The notes under the pieces: generated by a model | Databases searched by the model: none | What the model was told of the DNA's origin: nothing | The model's input: the letters and a program-made list of their open reading frames with translations, nothing else | Translations under genes and position numbers: made by a program | Shown: positions 38,343 through 45,250 of the stretch, in pieces | Layout of the letters: each line of letters begins with the position of its first letter | Position numbering within the stretch: position 1 is the first letter of the stretch | Source of the DNA: Alphaproteobacteria bacterium | GTDB taxonomy: Bacteria; Pseudomonadota; Alphaproteobacteria; UBA2966 | DNA length: 45,250 nt | Direction: 5' to 3' | NCBI GenBank assembly: GCA_030740435.1 | Contig: JASLXG010000151.1 | Coordinates: 1-45,250, forward strand

Positions 38343-38903
38343 CTATTCCCGTTCGGCCGGCGCGGCGTCCGCCGCGGCGATGATGGTGGCGGCGATTTCG
38401 CCGACGTCTTCGCGGTTTTCGTTGTTGTCGATCACCAGATGCGCGATTTGCGGCTCCTCGACGGCGATGTCGAGGCCGACCACGTTCTCCTCCTGGCCAC
38501 TGTCGGCGCGCAGGTAGAGGTCCTTGGGGTCGCGCCGGCGCAGCGTCTCGAGGTCGACTTTGAGAAAGACCTCGAAGTAGCCGGGCAGGTTTTTGCGGTT
38601 CCAGTAGTGGATGCGGTGGAAGAGCGACATGGTGGCGACCACCGCTGTCTCGCCGCGCTTTGTCGCTTGGCGGGCTAGTTCACCGACCCGGTAGGCGTTT
38701 TCCAGACGGCCTTCGCGGTCGTGACCGAGCGGTGCATCGGCATAGGCTTGGCGCACGGTGTCGCCGTCGATCAGCAAGACCGTCGTACCGGCGGCGCGCA
38801 ATTGCCGCGCGATCTCGTTCGCTATGGTGCTTTTGCCGGCGCCCGAAAGTCCAGTGATCCAAATCACCTGGCCCGAAGATGGCGCTGGCGGATTGCCTAC
38901 CAT
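38343..38903 (-). CDS. APS-kinase-like kinase, probable cytidine diphosphoramidate kinase (Cj1415-like)
   Basis: A 186-residue P-loop kinase. Walker A GLSGAGKST (18-26), LIDGDTVRQAYAD, GHDREGRLENAYRVGELA and DLYLRADSGQEENVVG match the CysC fold. By sequence it would be called adenylylsulfate kinase, but no sulfate-activation gene (CysN/CysD) is near. Instead it is last in the gene order of Campylobacter Cj1418-Cj1415, where Cj1415 phosphorylates the 3' hydroxyl of cytidine diphosphoramidate. That role is inferred from the neighbours. The ATG at 38903 overlaps the end of the nucleotidyltransferase by 7 bp. Confidence 0.82.
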   Translation of the reverse strand: MVGNPPAPSSGQVIWITGLSGAGKSTIANEIARQLRAAGTTVLLIDGDTVRQAYADAPLGHDREGRLENAYRVGELARQATKRGETAVVATMSLFHRIHYWNRKNLPGYFEVFLKVDLETLRRRDPKDLYLRADSGQEENVVGLDIAVEEPQIAHLVIDNNENREDVGEIAATIIAAADAAPAERE

Positions 38904-39649
38904 CGCCAGTCGTGGCTCCAGGCCTCGGCGGCGGCGATTTTTTCCTGGTAGAACCTGAGGTCGGTTTCACTGTCGACCTCGCACCAGGAGCCCTCGACCG
39001 CCACCGCGCCGATAGCCGTGCCGGCCGCCAGCAAGCGCGACAGCAGGGCCGTCATGTCGAGGCGGTCGCGCTCGGCCTCGGCCAGGCCGGCCAAGAGCTC
39101 GCTCACCCCCTGCCAGCCCGCCGGCGTGAACTTCAAGAGCCCCATGTACTGGCCCTCGATCTCGTCGGCGCGGGCGGTGCGGGCGCCGATCTCGAGAAGC
39201 CGCCCGCGGCGCTGGCGAAAAATTTCGGCATCGGCCAGGGGATCTTCGAAGCGCCCTTGCCAAAGTGCCTGCCAGTGGCGATCGTAAGCGATGGCCACAT
39301 CGTGGCGATCCGCGGCCAGGGCGCACACGGCGTCGGGGTGGTAGACGATGTCGGAATAGGAGACCAGGCAATCGTCGCGCCGCAGCACGTCGTCGGCGGC
39401 GGTCAATGTCACCACCATGTTGCTATCGGCCCAGCGTTCGTTGTCCCGCACATCGTAGCCGGGCCCCGAAAGTGCCTCGCGGTAGTAGCCGCGCACTACC
39501 ACGATTTGCTCGATGCCGGCGGCGCCCAGCGCGGTCAATTGCCAATCCAACAAGCTGCGGCCGGCCAGCTCGGTCAGGCACTTGGGCTGGTTGTCGGTCA
39601 ATGATCCCATGCGCGAGCCGCGGCCGGCGGCCAGGATGATGCCGATCAT
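38897..39649 (-). CDS. Nucleotidyltransferase, probable CTP:phosphoglutamine cytidylyltransferase (Cj1416-like)
   Basis: A 250-residue LicC/RmlA-type nucleotidyltransferase. The phosphate-binding loop LAAGRGSRMGSLT is followed by QPKCLTELAGRSLLDWQL; DCLVSYSDIVYHPDAV carries a metal Asp and GSWCEVDSETDL the second. In Campylobacter the counterpart Cj1416 joins CTP and N-phosphoglutamine to give CDP-L-glutamine. Here it stands between the glutamine amidotransferase-like and CysC-like genes, as there (10 bp and -7 bp spacing). Sugar or phosphocholine activation is the alternative, but no sugar or choline gene is present. Confidence 0.83.
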   Translation of the reverse strand: MIGIILAAGRGSRMGSLTDNQPKCLTELAGRSLLDWQLTALGAAGIEQIVVVRGYYREALSGPGYDVRDNERWADSNMVVTLTAADDVLRRDDCLVSYSDIVYHPDAVCALAADRHDVAIAYDRHWQALWQGRFEDPLADAEIFRQRRGRLLEIGARTARADEIEGQYMGLLKFTPAGWQGVSELLAGLAEAERDRLDMTALLSRLLAAGTAIGAVAVEGSWCEVDSETDLRFYQEKIAAAEAWSHDWRW

Positions 39650-39659
39650 GACGATACCC

Positions 39660-40304
39660 TCAATTGCCGCCCAGCCCGAACAGGTGGCGCACCAGGGCGC
39701 GGTCGAGATCGGCCGGCTGGGCCTCGCGCTCCGGGTGCCACATCACCGCGATCAGCGGCCGCTCGGGGCAATGACAGGCCTCGACCCAGCCGTCGGCGGT
39801 AACGGCCAGGGCCTCCAGCGGCGGCGCCAGGGTCTCGGCCCTGATGCCCACGGTGTGGAAGGAATTGACCTCGGTCATGGCCGGCAGTCCGGGGCAGGGT
39901 TGGGCCACAAGGGATACCTGGTGGCGCTGGGCCACGTGTTCCTCGCGCCGGCAGTCTCCCAGCGGCCCGCCCAGGACGCTCTGCACGAACTGCATGCCGC
40001 GGCAGACGCCAAACAACGGCAGGTGGGCCTGCCAGGCGTGCTTGAAAAGCGCCCGTTCGGTGGTGTCGCGCGCCGGCGCCGCGCCGATATCGTCGCCGCC
40101 GGTGAGGATCAGACCGTCGAGCTCCCAGTCGCGGATGAACTCGCTGGCCTGGGTGCCGGCGTTGGGCAGCGGCAGCCAGGCTGCCTCGGGCAGCACCGCG
40201 GCCATGAAGGCGAGCCAGTCGCGGGCCAGGGCGTCGCGTTCCTCGACGTAAGCGACGGCGTCAGAGGTGCGCATGCTGAGGCCGAGGCGTCGGGTTTTGA
40301 CCAT
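39660..40304 (-). CDS. Class I glutamine amidotransferase-like hydrolase, probable gamma-glutamyl-CDP-amidate hydrolase (Cj1417-like)
   Basis: A 214-residue peptidase C26/PuuD-hydrolase-type protein. Catalytic Cys101 in LFGVCRGMQ and His190/Glu192 in MWHPE complete the triad; LDGLILTGGDDIG is the family's oxyanion region. Counterparts in gamma-Glu-GABA hydrolysis release glutamate from a gamma-glutamyl amide. In Campylobacter Cj1417 cleaves CDP-L-glutamine to cytidine diphosphoramidate and glutamate, which fits the flanking genes. The ATG at 40304 begins the conserved VKTRRLGLS strand; the longer frame runs into the preceding gene. Function is inferred from fold plus order. Confidence 0.84.
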   Translation of the reverse strand: MVKTRRLGLSMRTSDAVAYVEERDALARDWLAFMAAVLPEAAWLPLPNAGTQASEFIRDWELDGLILTGGDDIGAAPARDTTERALFKHAWQAHLPLFGVCRGMQFVQSVLGGPLGDCRREEHVAQRHQVSLVAQPCPGLPAMTEVNSFHTVGIRAETLAPPLEALAVTADGWVEACHCPERPLIAVMWHPEREAQPADLDRALVRHLFGLGGN

Positions 40305-40323
40305 GCCGCTGTGCCGGGGCTTC

Positions 40324-42714
40324 TCAGGCCGCGTCCAGCCGGCGCAGCAGGCGGTCGGCACAGTTGAGTTCGACCCGGCGGGCCGAGGCCATCAGCTCGA
40401 AGGTGCGTTCGCCGCAGCCGATGGCGGCGGGCAAACCGAACTCGGCGCAGCGGATCGCCATGTGGGAGTTGGTGCCGCCGAACTTGGTGATCAGGCCCTG
40501 GATGCCCTTGGTGAATATCCAGTCGTAGCCAGGGTCGGCGTTTTCTATGCAGACGATCTTGCCATAAAGGTTGGTGCCGGCGGAGGCCAGGGAATCGAGC
40601 AGTATGGGCTGACCCTCGATGCGGCCCGAGCCGATGAAATTGGGAGCAGAGCGGTGCAGCGGCACGACGTATATGTCCTTGGCGTCACTGATCAGGTAGT
40701 TGAGCTTGAGCGCGGCGCTCAGTTCCATGGCCCGGCGGCCGCCCTCGGCCAAATCCAGAAAGTGGAGGTCGGTATCGTCGAGCACCGCATCGGTCAGGGT
40801 ATCGAGCATGGCGTTGACCTCGATGTAGGAGAGGTCGTCGCGGCCCAGGCCGAGGATCTCGCCCCAACGCCCGATGGCCGCCAGGGCGTCGGAAAGGCTG
40901 CGGGTGAAGACGAACTTGGCGTCTTCGCGGCCGGCGATGGCGCGCCGAGCGTAGCTCACCAGGCCTTCGGCGTCGATGTTTGTGAGCCCGCTTTCAGCCA
41001 GCAGCTTGTCCACGGCGGCCTGTTCGGCGGCGCTGAGCGCAAAGCTCGCGGGTGCCACTTCCTCGGGCGGCAGGCTGTCGGAAAAAAGATCGTCGCGCTC
41101 GTCGTAGCGTGGCGACAGGATGTCGTAGGTGCCGGGGCGCAGGTGGCCATAACGCAGCATGAAGGCCTGCGGGCCCAGTTGGCCGCGGCAGACGGCGGCG
41201 AAATCCGACGTAAGCTCGCCCGAGACCGTGCGCACCGAGCGGCGCAATTCCGCCAGCCGCTCCGGCGCGATGGCGCCGCGGGCCACGGCCGAGCGCAGCA
41301 GGGCCTCGGCGATGAAGGCGTGGCGGGCGATGATCGAGAACGGCAGGGTGCCCGAAGTCCGGCATTCCTGCAGATAATCGGCGGCCGCCAGCAGGGGTTC
41401 GATCTCGTGTTGGTCCTGGCTCGTTTTGCGGCGCTGGCGCTGCTTGTCCGAGAGCGTGTCAACCACCGTGCGGGCCAGTTCCAGCGTGCCATTACGGCCC
41501 AGCTCGAGGCAGGAATTGGTCAAGCTGGCCAGGTGCTCGCGGAAGCTGGCCAAGTCGTCGGCGCCGAGCAGGCCGCCGTAGCGCGCCGAAAAATTCTCAT
41601 CGAAGGTGAAGTCGAGGCAGGTCTGGGCGACCTCGAATTCGACCTTGTCGTGGAGTTCCGGGTGTCCGCTCAGGCGGTCGAGCCAGGCGTCCACCAGGGC
41701 CTCGGCGATAGTGCCGTCGAGGCCCTCGGGCAGCAGCGAATTGAAGCTGTTGCGCACGTCGATGAAGGGGTGGCCGCCGACCGTGACCATGAGTTCCTCG
41801 GAGGGCAGCCGGCGGTAGCCCATGCGTTCGCGGGCCAGCCGCCAGACGTCGCGGGTGATCAATTCGCGATAGAGCGAGGCGGCCAGCGGCCTCGGCGTGG
41901 TGCCGATGATCTCGGCCGGGTTCCAGTCCGGCATGACGCCGAGCACGGTGCGCGAGCCGGCCAGGCCGGCCCGGGGCCGGGAGCGGTTCTCGACGAATCG
42001 CTCGATGTATTCCAGGCGCTTCGAGACCCGGTTCTGGGTGCCCGCCAGCCAGCGCCGCTGCAGGCTGATGCGCCGCACCTGGAAGAGCACGACGCGGCCA
42101 TCGTGGGTTATGCCGAACTCGATATCCAAGGGTACCGGGCCGCAAATTTCCTCCAGGTCGCGGGCCAGGACAAGCATGCTGAGGACACGCTCGGATTGCA
42201 GGTACTTGTCGTCGCAGCCGCGAAACACCAGCACCGCCTTGTTGACGTGGGTGCCGCCGGTGATCGAGTCGGTCTTGCCCGATTCGTCGTCGTATTCGAT
42301 GACGTAGAAGGGCGAGCCGCGCTGCAAATCGTGGGTCATGATGACGCCACTTAGCGCCACGTCGTCAAGCATGGGCTGGACCAGGACCTGATCGTTGGGA
42401 TTGCCGGAATAGGAGGCAACGACGTCGGCGATGGCGCTTTGCAGGGCCTGGCGGTTGCCGCCATCGACGCCCAGCCGGCTCATGAAAGCACCGGCCATTG
42501 AACCTTCCGCGCTGTCCTCGCCAGTGGCGCTGGAGCGCACCGCCAAGATCTGCTCGCCGTAGTCCGCGGCCAGGCGCTCGAGCACGGCGTCGGGGTCGGC
42601 CAGCCAATCGGAGACCGGGAAATAGGTCAGATCGAGGACCTCGGCCCGTCGCACCAGCGGCGCCAGCCGCTCCAGCGTCTCGGCCTTGGTGCCGAAGGAA
42701 AAATCAGTCGCCAT
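40324..42714 (-). CDS. PEP-synthase-like kinase, probable L-glutamine kinase (Cj1418-like)
   Basis: A 796-residue protein. An N-terminal ATP-grasp (PPDK_N-like) domain shows AVRSSATGEDS (58-68) and VLVQPML; a long helical middle follows (about 270-680). The C-terminal swivelling phosphohistidine domain has TKFGGTNSHMAIRCAEFGLPA with the transfer His751. True PEP synthase also needs a PEP/pyruvate-binding TIM barrel, which is missing, so PEP is not the product. In Campylobacter Cj1418 the same layout phosphorylates the amide nitrogen of glutamine. The start is ATG at 42714, sharing one base with the methyltransferase stop (TGATG). The ATP-grasp and His domains are intact. Confidence 0.85.
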   Translation of the reverse strand: MATDFSFGTKAETLERLAPLVRRAEVLDLTYFPVSDWLADPDAVLERLAADYGEQILAVRSSATGEDSAEGSMAGAFMSRLGVDGGNRQALQSAIADVVASYSGNPNDQVLVQPMLDDVALSGVIMTHDLQRGSPFYVIEYDDESGKTDSITGGTHVNKAVLVFRGCDDKYLQSERVLSMLVLARDLEEICGPVPLDIEFGITHDGRVVLFQVRRISLQRRWLAGTQNRVSKRLEYIERFVENRSRPRAGLAGSRTVLGVMPDWNPAEIIGTTPRPLAASLYRELITRDVWRLARERMGYRRLPSEELMVTVGGHPFIDVRNSFNSLLPEGLDGTIAEALVDAWLDRLSGHPELHDKVEFEVAQTCLDFTFDENFSARYGGLLGADDLASFREHLASLTNSCLELGRNGTLELARTVVDTLSDKQRQRRKTSQDQHEIEPLLAAADYLQECRTSGTLPFSIIARHAFIAEALLRSAVARGAIAPERLAELRRSVRTVSGELTSDFAAVCRGQLGPQAFMLRYGHLRPGTYDILSPRYDERDDLFSDSLPPEEVAPASFALSAAEQAAVDKLLAESGLTNIDAEGLVSYARRAIAGREDAKFVFTRSLSDALAAIGRWGEILGLGRDDLSYIEVNAMLDTLTDAVLDDTDLHFLDLAEGGRRAMELSAALKLNYLISDAKDIYVVPLHRSAPNFIGSGRIEGQPILLDSLASAGTNLYGKIVCIENADPGYDWIFTKGIQGLITKFGGTNSHMAIRCAEFGLPAAIGCGERTFELMASARRVELNCADRLLRRLDAA

Positions 42715-43466
42715 CAATTGCGCAACCCGGCCAGCCAGACCTGGGTGGTATAGGGAATGTCGATGACCGCGAGGCCGCTCTCTCGCAGTACCGCCTCGAT
42801 ATCGCCAATGACGGCCTCGAACTGCTGGCCCGCCTGGCGGTGCAGCGTGCCGTGGCTGCGCCAGGCCTCGAGGCAGTCCTGCAAGGATTGTTGGTGTGTG
42901 ATGCCGCCCGAGATGCGGCTCACCTCGCCAAACAGGCCGCTGGCTTCGATCGCCACCGTCTGGTCCTCGCGCCGTCTGCCGTAGGCGTAGTCCGGTATGC
43001 GGGCGGCAATGGCGCTTTCGATGGCGGCCTGCAGTGGGTCATCGAGGTCGCGGTGGTTCCACATGCAGGCGAACCAGCCCTGCGGCTTGAGGATGCGGGA
43101 CGATTCGCGGAGCGCCGCCGCTTGGTCGACGACGTTGAAAGACGAGCCGAAGGTGACCAGATCGAAAGCGTCGTCGGGTTGTTGGGTGTGCTCGCCGGTG
43201 CCTTCGACCCAGCTCACCCGGGGCCAGGCGGCGGTGCGCTTCTGGCCGCGGGCACGCATCTCGTCGTTGGGCTCGACCGGGCTTACCTCGAGGCCGCGTT
43301 GCAGCAGTTTCAGCGTCAGGTGCGCCACCCCGGCACCGACGTCGCAGACCCGCGCCCCGGCTTCCAGCCCGGTGCTTGCCAGCAGCTCGTCGATGGCGGC
43401 ATCGGAATAGTCCGGCCGTTGCAGGTAGGCCTCGGCAAGGTCGGAATAGTCCCATTCCGTTTTCAT
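42714..43466 (-). CDS. SAM-dependent methyltransferase in phosphoramidate cluster (Cj1419/Cj1420-like position)
   Basis: A 250-residue class I methyltransferase. Motif I VCDVGAGVAHLTLKLL (SAM glycine loop), acidic VEPNDEM after strand 2, FDLVTFGSSFNVVD for motif IV and LKPQGWFACMWNHRD for motif VI. The N-terminal WDYSDLAEAYLQRPDYSDAAI is typical of small-molecule methyltransferases. Campylobacter has two methyltransferases at this place, assigned to O-methylation of the phosphoramidate; only one is present here. GGAG lies 9 bp before the ATG. The downstream kinase starts within its stop codon. Confidence 0.85.
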   Translation of the reverse strand: MKTEWDYSDLAEAYLQRPDYSDAAIDELLASTGLEAGARVCDVGAGVAHLTLKLLQRGLEVSPVEPNDEMRARGQKRTAAWPRVSWVEGTGEHTQQPDDAFDLVTFGSSFNVVDQAAALRESSRILKPQGWFACMWNHRDLDDPLQAAIESAIAARIPDYAYGRRREDQTVAIEASGLFGEVSRISGGITHQQSLQDCLEAWRSHGTLHRQAGQQFEAVIGDIEAVLRESGLAVIDIPYTTQVWLAGLRN

Positions 43467-43536: not shown

Positions 43537-44826
43537 TCAAAGCAACTCGATCAGTGCTTCGCGGCGCCGCCAGCCGCGCCACCAACGGCCCACCACATGG
43601 CGGCGCAGGGCCAGGTATTCGGTCCCCATGGCGCCCACGGTGCGGCCATCCCAGGGCCGCCGCCGGCGCCACAGCCGGGTCTCGAAGCGAAAGGGCCAGA
43701 GCCACAGCATAAAGGCCGCCAGCCTGAGCGGCGTTAGCAGGAAAGGCCAGCCGATATCATAGCCCCAGGCGGCGTACTTGTCGGCCAACAGGAACTTCAA
43801 ACGCAGCCGGTCGAAGGGCGTCACGATGTCGCCGTGGCGCTTGGCGATGGTTTGGCTCTGAAAGCCCTGGACCACGGTATCGCCGCTACGCCAGGTCCAG
43901 AGCTTGCCGTCGAAGGTGCTGTGCATGAGATTTTCGTGCCACTCGATGCCGATCCAGGCAGCGATTTTTGCCAAGGTCTCGCGGGGCTTCATATGCAGGT
44001 CCTCGAGCCGTACGGCACGGCTCTCGTTGCCCTCGAAGGCGGTCTCGCCGGGGGGGCTGCGCTGCGCCATGGGCGTGGCGTAGTCGAGGCTTTGCAAAAT
44101 CAGGCGCCTGGGCAGGTCGAGGTGCAGCCATTGTTCCGAACGCCCGCTTCCCTGGTAGTGCGAGGCCAGGGTCTGGACCGGTTCGCGCACGGTGTGGAGG
44201 AACTTGACGCGGCCCGGGAAATCTTGGGCCAGGGGGCGCAGTTTGTCCGGTTCGGGAACATGTCCCTGGAAGACCAGCAAGGGCCGGCCAGCCCCGAGCT
44301 TACGTCCCAGAACCTCGGCGTAGGCGGCGTGTACGGCCTTAAAGAAGTAGCGCCCCGGTAGCGGCTGGCTTTGGAAGTCCTCGATCACCAGGGCGAGCTT
44401 GCGCAACAGGGCGTCGCTGAAGGCGCCCTTGTCCAGGCCCAGTCGCTGGTCGCCCTCGGTGCCCATGCGGTCGAGGCCGTAGCTGGTTCCCAGCGAGGTA
44501 TCGCCAACCTCGGCGCCGGGATCGAAGAAGACCTCGTAGGCGTCGAGAAAATAGCCCAGCGCGGTTATCGCCGGCAGCTCGCGGATGCTTTCCCAGAAGG
44601 CGTAGAAGCCGACCAGATAGATCGCCGGCAGCGTCACCACCTGGGGATGGTTGTCCAACAGGCTGTGCAAAAAGACAGAGCCGGAACGGCCATAGTAATG
44701 GATCGAGATGACGTGCTCGAACTGGGTGGCATCGATGGCCGGGGTATCGGGTGGCGCCACGGTGTGATCTGCGGCTCGCTCTGTCAGGGTGCTCCAGAGC
44801 TTAATCCGGAATGTTCGCCGGGTCAC
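43537..44826 (-). CDS. Sulfotransferase-fold protein, candidate phosphoramidoyl transferase
   Basis: A roughly 429-residue protein. HYYGRSGSVFLHSLLDNHP is a 5'-phosphosulfate loop of PAPS sulfotransferases and HTVREPVQTLASHY the 3'-phosphate-binding motif (R-x-P-x5-S). The region after residue 330 is basic and hydrophobic and could contact a membrane or glycan acceptor. It is first in the minus-strand run, 70 bp ahead of the methyltransferase. The neighbouring CysC-like kinase makes a 3'-phosphonucleotide, so this fold may transfer phosphoramidate instead of sulfate; that is inference. Start GTG 44826 has GAGG upstream; GTG 44883 is possible but would face the divergent gene more closely. Confidence 0.75.
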   Translation of the reverse strand: MTRRTFRIKLWSTLTERAADHTVAPPDTPAIDATQFEHVISIHYYGRSGSVFLHSLLDNHPQVVTLPAIYLVGFYAFWESIRELPAITALGYFLDAYEVFFDPGAEVGDTSLGTSYGLDRMGTEGDQRLGLDKGAFSDALLRKLALVIEDFQSQPLPGRYFFKAVHAAYAEVLGRKLGAGRPLLVFQGHVPEPDKLRPLAQDFPGRVKFLHTVREPVQTLASHYQGSGRSEQWLHLDLPRRLILQSLDYATPMAQRSPPGETAFEGNESRAVRLEDLHMKPRETLAKIAAWIGIEWHENLMHSTFDGKLWTWRSGDTVVQGFQSQTIAKRHGDIVTPFDRLRLKFLLADKYAAWGYDIGWPFLLTPLRLAAFMLWLWPFRFETRLWRRRRPWDGRTVGAMGTEYLALRRHVVGRWWRGWRRREALIELL

Positions 44827-44889: not shown

Positions 44890-45204
44890 ATGCCGCTTCG
44901 CACCACCCTTGTCGGCGCTCTCCCCAAGGCCGATTTCTCGCCCAAGCTGGTGGGTCATAACGCCTTCAGCGTCAAGCCCACCTATGCCGCGGAAGTCGGC
45001 CGCTTTTTGGAAAGATTCGACGTCGGCGGCTACTTCGAGGTGCAGACCCTGCAGGCCGTGCTGCAACAGCTCGAGTTGGGCCTCGACATCCTCACCGAGG
45101 GCGAGCTCAGCCGGGTCGATTACTGGCGCTACAACTGCTTCTATCTCGACGGCCTGGAAGCCGACGGCGACGATATCGTGGTGACCGGGGGCCTGTGTCG
45201 CTGA
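44890..45204 (+). CDS. MetE-like cobalamin-independent methyltransferase, N-terminal part with frameshift
   Basis: The ATG at 44890 begins LRTTLVGALPKADFSPKL, and AVLQQLELGLDILTEGELSRVDYWRYN follows, matching the methionine-synthase C-terminal (UROD-like) barrel: zinc/methyl-transfer family with ILTEGE-R-DY. The frame stops at 45204 after VVTGGLCR. One extra G in the run at 45187-45191 would continue as VTGGPVSLSEPVLHHDFSRAQAYT, which fits the family, to the window edge. It is therefore a partial gene with an apparent one-base loss. It is divergent from the sulfotransferase-like gene. The full enzyme would be about 340-380 residues. Substrate unknown. Confidence 0.75.
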   Translation: MPLRTTLVGALPKADFSPKLVGHNAFSVKPTYAAEVGRFLERFDVGGYFEVQTLQAVLQQLELGLDILTEGELSRVDYWRYNCFYLDGLEADGDDIVVTGGLCR

Positions 45205-45250
45205 GCGAGCCGGTGCTGCACCACGATTTCAGCCGGGCCCAGGCCTACAC

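Follow-up and report, generated by a model that had tools for sequence, protein, structure and literature searches.

We analyzed a window of 45,250 nucleotides (the whole stretch of DNA presented here, contig JASLXG010000151.1 of an alphaproteobacterium of the GTDB group UBA2966), in which the gene for a sulfotransferase-fold protein, hereafter ST, is the first of a minus-strand operon and is followed by a methyltransferase gene and by homologues of Cj1418, Cj1417, Cj1416 and Cj1415. The features of this operon are as follows.

43537..44826, minus strand: ST, candidate phosphoramidoyl transferase, 429 aa, GTG start (Pfam, structural model and profile; tracks Cj1418 in the order)
44668..44691, minus strand: 5' phosphate loop GRSGSVFL of ST, residues 46-53, with a hydrophobic residue where RSG[ST] is otherwise followed by Thr/Ser
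44161..44190, minus strand: 3'-phosphate motif VREPVQTLAS of ST, residues 213-222, including Arg214 and Ser222 (profile alignment, conservation)
42714..43466, minus strand: class I SAM methyltransferase, candidate for the O-methyl group of methyl phosphoramidate (PF08241, E=7.4e-16)
40324..42717, minus strand: Cj1418-type L-glutamine kinase, PEP-synthase-like (NF004508, 902 bits, cut-off 501)
39660..40361, likely start near 40304, minus strand: Cj1417-type glutamine amidotransferase-fold hydrolase (PF07722, E=1.5e-23)
38897..39649, minus strand: Cj1416-type cytidylyltransferase (PF12804, E=2e-18; CTP:phosphocholine cytidylyltransferase 1jyk, E=1.2e-8)
38343..38903, minus strand: Cj1415-type CDP-amidate 3'-kinase, APS-kinase fold (PF01583, 119 bits)

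Several junctions within the operon overlap or are only a few bases apart, the gap between ST and the methyltransferase gene is about 70 bases, and ST is the only candidate transferase that the operon contains. The methyl phosphoramidate pathway of Campylobacter jejuni, whose donor is known from capsules, comprises Cj1415-Cj1418 and the transferases Cj1421 and Cj1422 (PMC3907429, PMC12096443). Its donor-making genes are all present in the window operon too, together with the methyltransferase and the one candidate transferase. An earlier reading of this DNA (the sequence-only reading) held that the cluster makes 3'-phospho-CDP-amidate, which agrees with the presence of four donor-gene homologues (for the glutamine kinase, the hydrolase, the cytidylyltransferase and the 3'-kinase) in a single operon. 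The best NCBIfam match of the Cj1417-type protein was gamma-glutamyl-CDP-amidate hydrolase (NF045546, E=1.6e-23, under its cut-off), and the Cj1415-type kinase scored under the cut-off of TIGR00455 (apsK) and over that of NF004041. The PF01583 score of this kinase falls within the range of Cj1415-type kinases at other loci (about 90-143 bits), whereas true APS kinases scored 174-240 bits. Homologues of the operon methyltransferase were found in other Cj1418 loci and also beside the Cj1415-type kinase of the genome G190.

A cobalamin-independent methionine-synthase-like ORF (44890-45250, plus strand) lies divergent from ST; it is frameshifted near 45196, some 50 bases short of the contig end, and its counterpart in the genome G313 is intact (350 aa). 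Elsewhere in the window genome (G000), a second Cj1415-type kinase (G000:C29:12850-13299, locus L011) lies beside a module of an epimerase, a protein of ~200 aa and a formyltransferase-like ORF. This module also separates Cj1415 from Cj1418 at loci of Pseudomonas and Alteromonas.

ST passes the Pfam model Sulfotransfer_3 (PF13469, 34.9 bits against a cut-off of 27, E=2.4e-8). We compared an AlphaFold model of ST (pLDDT 75, pTM 0.78) with known structures, and the best match was the olefin-synthase sulfotransferase 4gox (Z 15.5, 243 residues, rmsd 4.5), with the tyrosylprotein sulfotransferase TPST2 (3ap1) scoring similarly (Z 15.2); in a Foldseek search, 18 of the 18 top matches were sulfotransferases. 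Moreover, a profile built from 14 ST relatives found human TPST1 (E=1.3e-16), with both nucleotide motifs aligned. ST is thus a member of the sulfotransferase superfamily by its Pfam model, its fold and its 3'-phosphonucleotide residues, and the claim of the sequence-only reading that 43537-44826 encodes a sulfotransferase-type protein with a 5' loop and a 3' motif was confirmed for the ORF, for both motifs, by Pfam and by the fold. With PAPS sulfotransferases (TPST1/2, the CurM and olefin-synthase domains, and other PF13469 proteins), ST has in common the fold (Z about 15), the position of the 5' loop, an LDxHP motif and the Arg...Ser motif for the 3'-phosphate; unlike in the setting of these enzymes, the operon of ST is predicted to supply 3'-phospho-CDP-amidate, not PAPS.

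In the family-profile alignment, the 5' loop of ST (GRSGSVFLHSLL, beginning at residue 46) is the counterpart of the 5'-phosphosulfate loop of TPST1 (PRSGTTLMRAMLDAHPD), and REPVQTLAS (residues 214-222) aligns with the 3'-phosphate motif VRDGRASVHS of TPST1. Two loop residues, Arg47 and Gly49, do not vary among the 14 ST relatives; in the 3' motif, Ser222 is likewise invariant and Arg214 nearly so. In known sulfotransferases, the equivalents of these Arg, Gly and Ser residues bind the 5' group and the 3'-phosphate; therefore, the conservation of these residues makes a 3'-phosphorylated nucleotide the likely class of donor for ST. In the subfamily of the window ST, Val, Ile, Phe or Leu takes the place of the second Thr/Ser in the 5' loop. 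Two further regions differ from TPST, in which Tyr of VHYEQL and Glu of CGEET play a role: the Tyr is Leu in ST (VRLEDL), and the Glu region reads TLPAI. We considered the TLP motif and the replacement of Tyr by Leu as donor-specific marks and rejected them, since LEDL and TLP also occur in TPR-sulfotransferases of genomes without Cj1418, and accordingly no residue yet separates the donors.

These TPR-sulfotransferases, which unlike ST carry an N-terminal TPR domain, are the nearest homologues of ST outside its own group (32-36% identity), and were found in the genomes G184, G059 and G196, in two cases near flagellar genes. All three genomes, which belong to the class, lack Cj1418 but carry a true APS kinase; in two of them, moreover, a sulfurylase adjoins a second kinase. 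Closer relatives include an orthologue 79% identical to ST in the sister genome G313, at locus L039 (G313:C196:14133-15371, L039:3135-4454), which contains one in-frame stop codon and is either a pseudogene or an assembly error; a second ST copy of that genome, beyond the metE-like gene, is intact. The presence of five ST members in G313 suggests several acceptors. Three more ST paralogues of the window genome (on G000:C85, C91 and C183; loci L006, L007 and L008) show 39-49% identity and stand singly among unrelated genes, the one on C183 being split over two frames.

The main alternative to a role in phosphoramidate transfer is that ST is an ordinary PAPS-dependent sulfotransferase, acting on the same surface glycan or on a different acceptor, while the rest of its operon makes phosphoramidate. 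The fold and motifs described above are the same as those of PAPS sulfotransferases, and the closest outside homologues occur, as stated, in genomes with an APS kinase and without Cj1418. Several further PF13469 genes are present in the window genome, as is a CysN/CysC-type APS kinase on another contig (G000:C186, 226 bits); judging from this gene, the organism is able to make PAPS. The sequence-only reading had pointed out that no PAPS-making gene is present in the window. Indeed, no APS kinase lies within it, but this observation is uninformative because the same genome carries one elsewhere. We rejected the observation as evidence on the donor. A different case is offered by G190 (98% complete), in which an ST (PF00685, E=2.6e-6) lies inside the Cj1418 operon. 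This genome has a single member of the APS-kinase family, a Cj1415-type kinase adjoining a methyltransferase that resembles the one in the window. The combination of an operon-borne ST and no true APS kinase argues against PAPS as the donor, although the case is weakened by a TagF-like gene at the same Cj1418 locus. In addition, Cj1415-like kinases adjoin an ATP-sulfurylase-like gene at L188 and L189 (G059:C1 and G184:C33), in genomes without Cj1418, and therefore a Cj1415-like score alone is no proof of a CDP-amidate kinase.

We compared the distributions of ST and Cj1418 among 15 genomes of the window's order, counting window-type STs at E values up to 1e-6 and detecting Cj1418 with NF004508. 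Window-type STs were present in all three genomes with Cj1418 (G000, G313 and G314) and in none of the 12 genomes without it. Such a match has a probability of 1/455 if the genomes are independent; because the genomes are related, G000 and G313 belonging to the same genus, the test amounts to roughly two independent gains. G314 has both ST and Cj1418, and its congeners G315 and G316 have neither. In G314, ST is located mid-contig and on a different contig from Cj1418, so that neighborhood or linkage alone does not explain the match. A true APS kinase was found in 7/7 genomes of the window's family, and four of these genomes that belong to the 12 without Cj1418 (G194, G287, G315 and G316) have this kinase without a window-type ST. 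Since ST matches Cj1418 within the order while APS kinase occurs without ST, the gene tracks the phosphoramidate pathway and not the PAPS supply, contrary to what would be expected of an ordinary PAPS-dependent enzyme. Strict family-level co-occurrence did not extend across the class, given the distant homologues in the Cj1418-less genomes G184, G059 and G196.

We further analyzed Cj1418-type loci from other bacteria. A search with 14 aligned Cj1418 homologues yielded 80 named loci, with no Campylobacter among them; these, 13 loci from members of the class and the window, minus two duplicates, gave 92 mapped loci. At 24 of the 92, a sulfotransferase gene of one of several ST lineages was located within 6.5 kb of Cj1418, and most of the weak calls among them were confirmed by Pfam. 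The hosts belong to several phyla, and include Verrucomicrobia, Desulfovibrio, Omnitrophota, Planctomycetota, KSB1 and Nitrospina. Thus, the co-occurrence of this family with Cj1418 homologues, which the sequence-only reading had named as a check, turned out favorably, both in the order (3/3 against 0/12) and in the ST-superfamily genes beside clusters of several phyla. At some loci the association is close: the gene order at L052 is Cj1418-Cj1417-Cj1416-ST-methyltransferase-Cj1415-ST, the Cj1415 and ST genes share a 4 bp overlap at L030, and ST lies between Cj1417 and Cj1418 at L038. In 14 genomes, seven PF13469 matches were observed near the cluster against about 0.23 expected from their density, a figure uncorrected for the preference of both gene classes for glycan loci. 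STs and phosphoramidate genes could simply be neighbors in surface-glycan loci. An extra ST-like ORF at L045, noticed on visual inspection and weakly similar to the L026 ST, has no Pfam match and is not counted among the 24.

In one ST subfamily, well supported in the tree, the PAPS loop gives way to a Walker-A-like loop, GxxRxGK[ST/M]. The members found (4/4) all lie beside Cj1418-type clusters in different phyla; the hosts are Omnitrophota, Magnetovibrio and a gammaproteobacterium, and the structural model of this subfamily likewise shows the sulfotransferase fold (TPST1, Z 16.5). The four members are the following.

L052:16609-17598, ST with Walker-A-like loop
L093:8880-9857, ST with Walker-A-like loop
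L107:16036-16998, ST with Walker-A-like loop
L112:8961-9938, ST with Walker-A-like loop

On the poorly resolved ST tree, cluster-linked labels group more than shuffled labels do; a single monophyletic clade of cluster-linked STs was rejected, as the labels need seven changes. A fusion of ST to a pathway enzyme was likewise rejected, the long ORFs at L061 and L084 being TPR fusions and other long ORFs having over-extended starts. Two other families were noted at these loci: a 606-aa family at L091, with no Pfam or PDB match, and a family of ~410 aa with no Pfam match, 3' of the Cj1415 gene (L077:14353-15648, L089:14491-15738 and L106:12905-14116), which by eye may be SGNH-hydrolase-like.

Genes of a different family, the CDP-glycerol:poly(glycerophosphate) glycerophosphotransferases (TagF-like, PF04464), stand in the transferase position at other Cj1418-type loci. 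They were found near the cluster at 23 of the 92 loci, mostly directly before Cj1415. A TagF-like gene directly upstream of the Cj1415 gene was seen at L049, L050, L053-L055, L057, L058, L103 and others, which are loci of the flagellin-glycosylation type. ST and TagF-like genes occurred together at only one locus, whereas about six were expected (hypergeometric P about 0.003). This near-exclusion is the pattern of alternative transferases, with taxonomy partly behind it, and it again speaks against ST being a PAPS-dependent sulfotransferase, as does the fact that the donor of the operon would then be left without a transferase. Taking both sides together, we regard the PAPS-dependent alternative as less likely than phosphoramidate transfer. 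It is less likely still that an unlinked enzyme, TagF-like or Cj1421/Cj1422-like, moves the phosphoramidate while ST acts otherwise, e.g. by binding or hydrolyzing the nucleotide: the TagF-like genes, and the 46 of 92 loci that lack both classes within 6.5 kb (some of these contigs are short), imply that other kinds of transferase exist, but the operon holds no other transferase and window-type STs were gained or kept along with Cj1418.

We therefore consider ST the best candidate for a phosphoramidoyl transferase that uses 3'-phospho-CDP-amidate to attach phosphoramidate to an acceptor, with a probability of roughly 0.6. The genes, the fold, the conserved motif, the operon linkage and the co-occurrence form the observed basis of this reading. 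The proposal of the sequence-only reading, that ST moves phosphoramidate from a PAPS analogue, thus holds as far as the fold, the operon, the 3'-phosphate residues and the co-occurrence are concerned; it is tempered by the genome's capacity to make PAPS, by the nearest homologues in Cj1418-less genomes and by the presence of ST at only 24 of the 92 loci. We infer the donor, the chemistry, the acceptor and the order of methylation. In the proposed mechanism, the homologues of Cj1418, Cj1417, Cj1416 and Cj1415 would convert glutamine, ATP and CTP to 3'-phospho-CDP-amidate, which ST would bind in the way that other sulfotransferases bind PAPS, with Arg214 and Ser222 gripping the 3'-phosphate and loop residues 46-53 the 5' diphosphate. 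ST would then transfer H2N-PO2, whose shape and charge are nearly those of SO3, to a hydroxyl of the acceptor, leaving cytidine 3',5'-bisphosphate, and the neighboring methyltransferase would add the O-methyl group.

In Campylobacter jejuni, Cj1421 and Cj1422 were assigned as methyl phosphoramidate transferases by genetics, and some Campylobacter species with the donor genes have no recognisable transferases (PMC3907429). The literature searched, from which subscription papers are mostly absent, contains no mention of sulfotransferases in the setting of a phosphoramidate pathway. We know of no sulfotransferase-fold enzyme that moves a non-sulfate group from a non-adenine donor, and ST would be the first if our reading is true. 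More tentatively, and at slightly less than even odds, several ST lineages, including the one with the Walker-A-like loop, may independently be phosphoramidoyl transferases, 3'-phospho-CDP-amidate may be a cytidine mimic of PAPS, and the 3'-phosphate step may exist because sulfotransferase folds read the donor. The Cj1415-type kinase 3'-phosphorylates CDP-amidate without a stated reason, and if our reading is true, recognition of the 3'-phosphate by a sulfotransferase fold would give this step a purpose. Phosphoramidate-modified glycans or other acceptors would then be predicted across many bacterial phyla.
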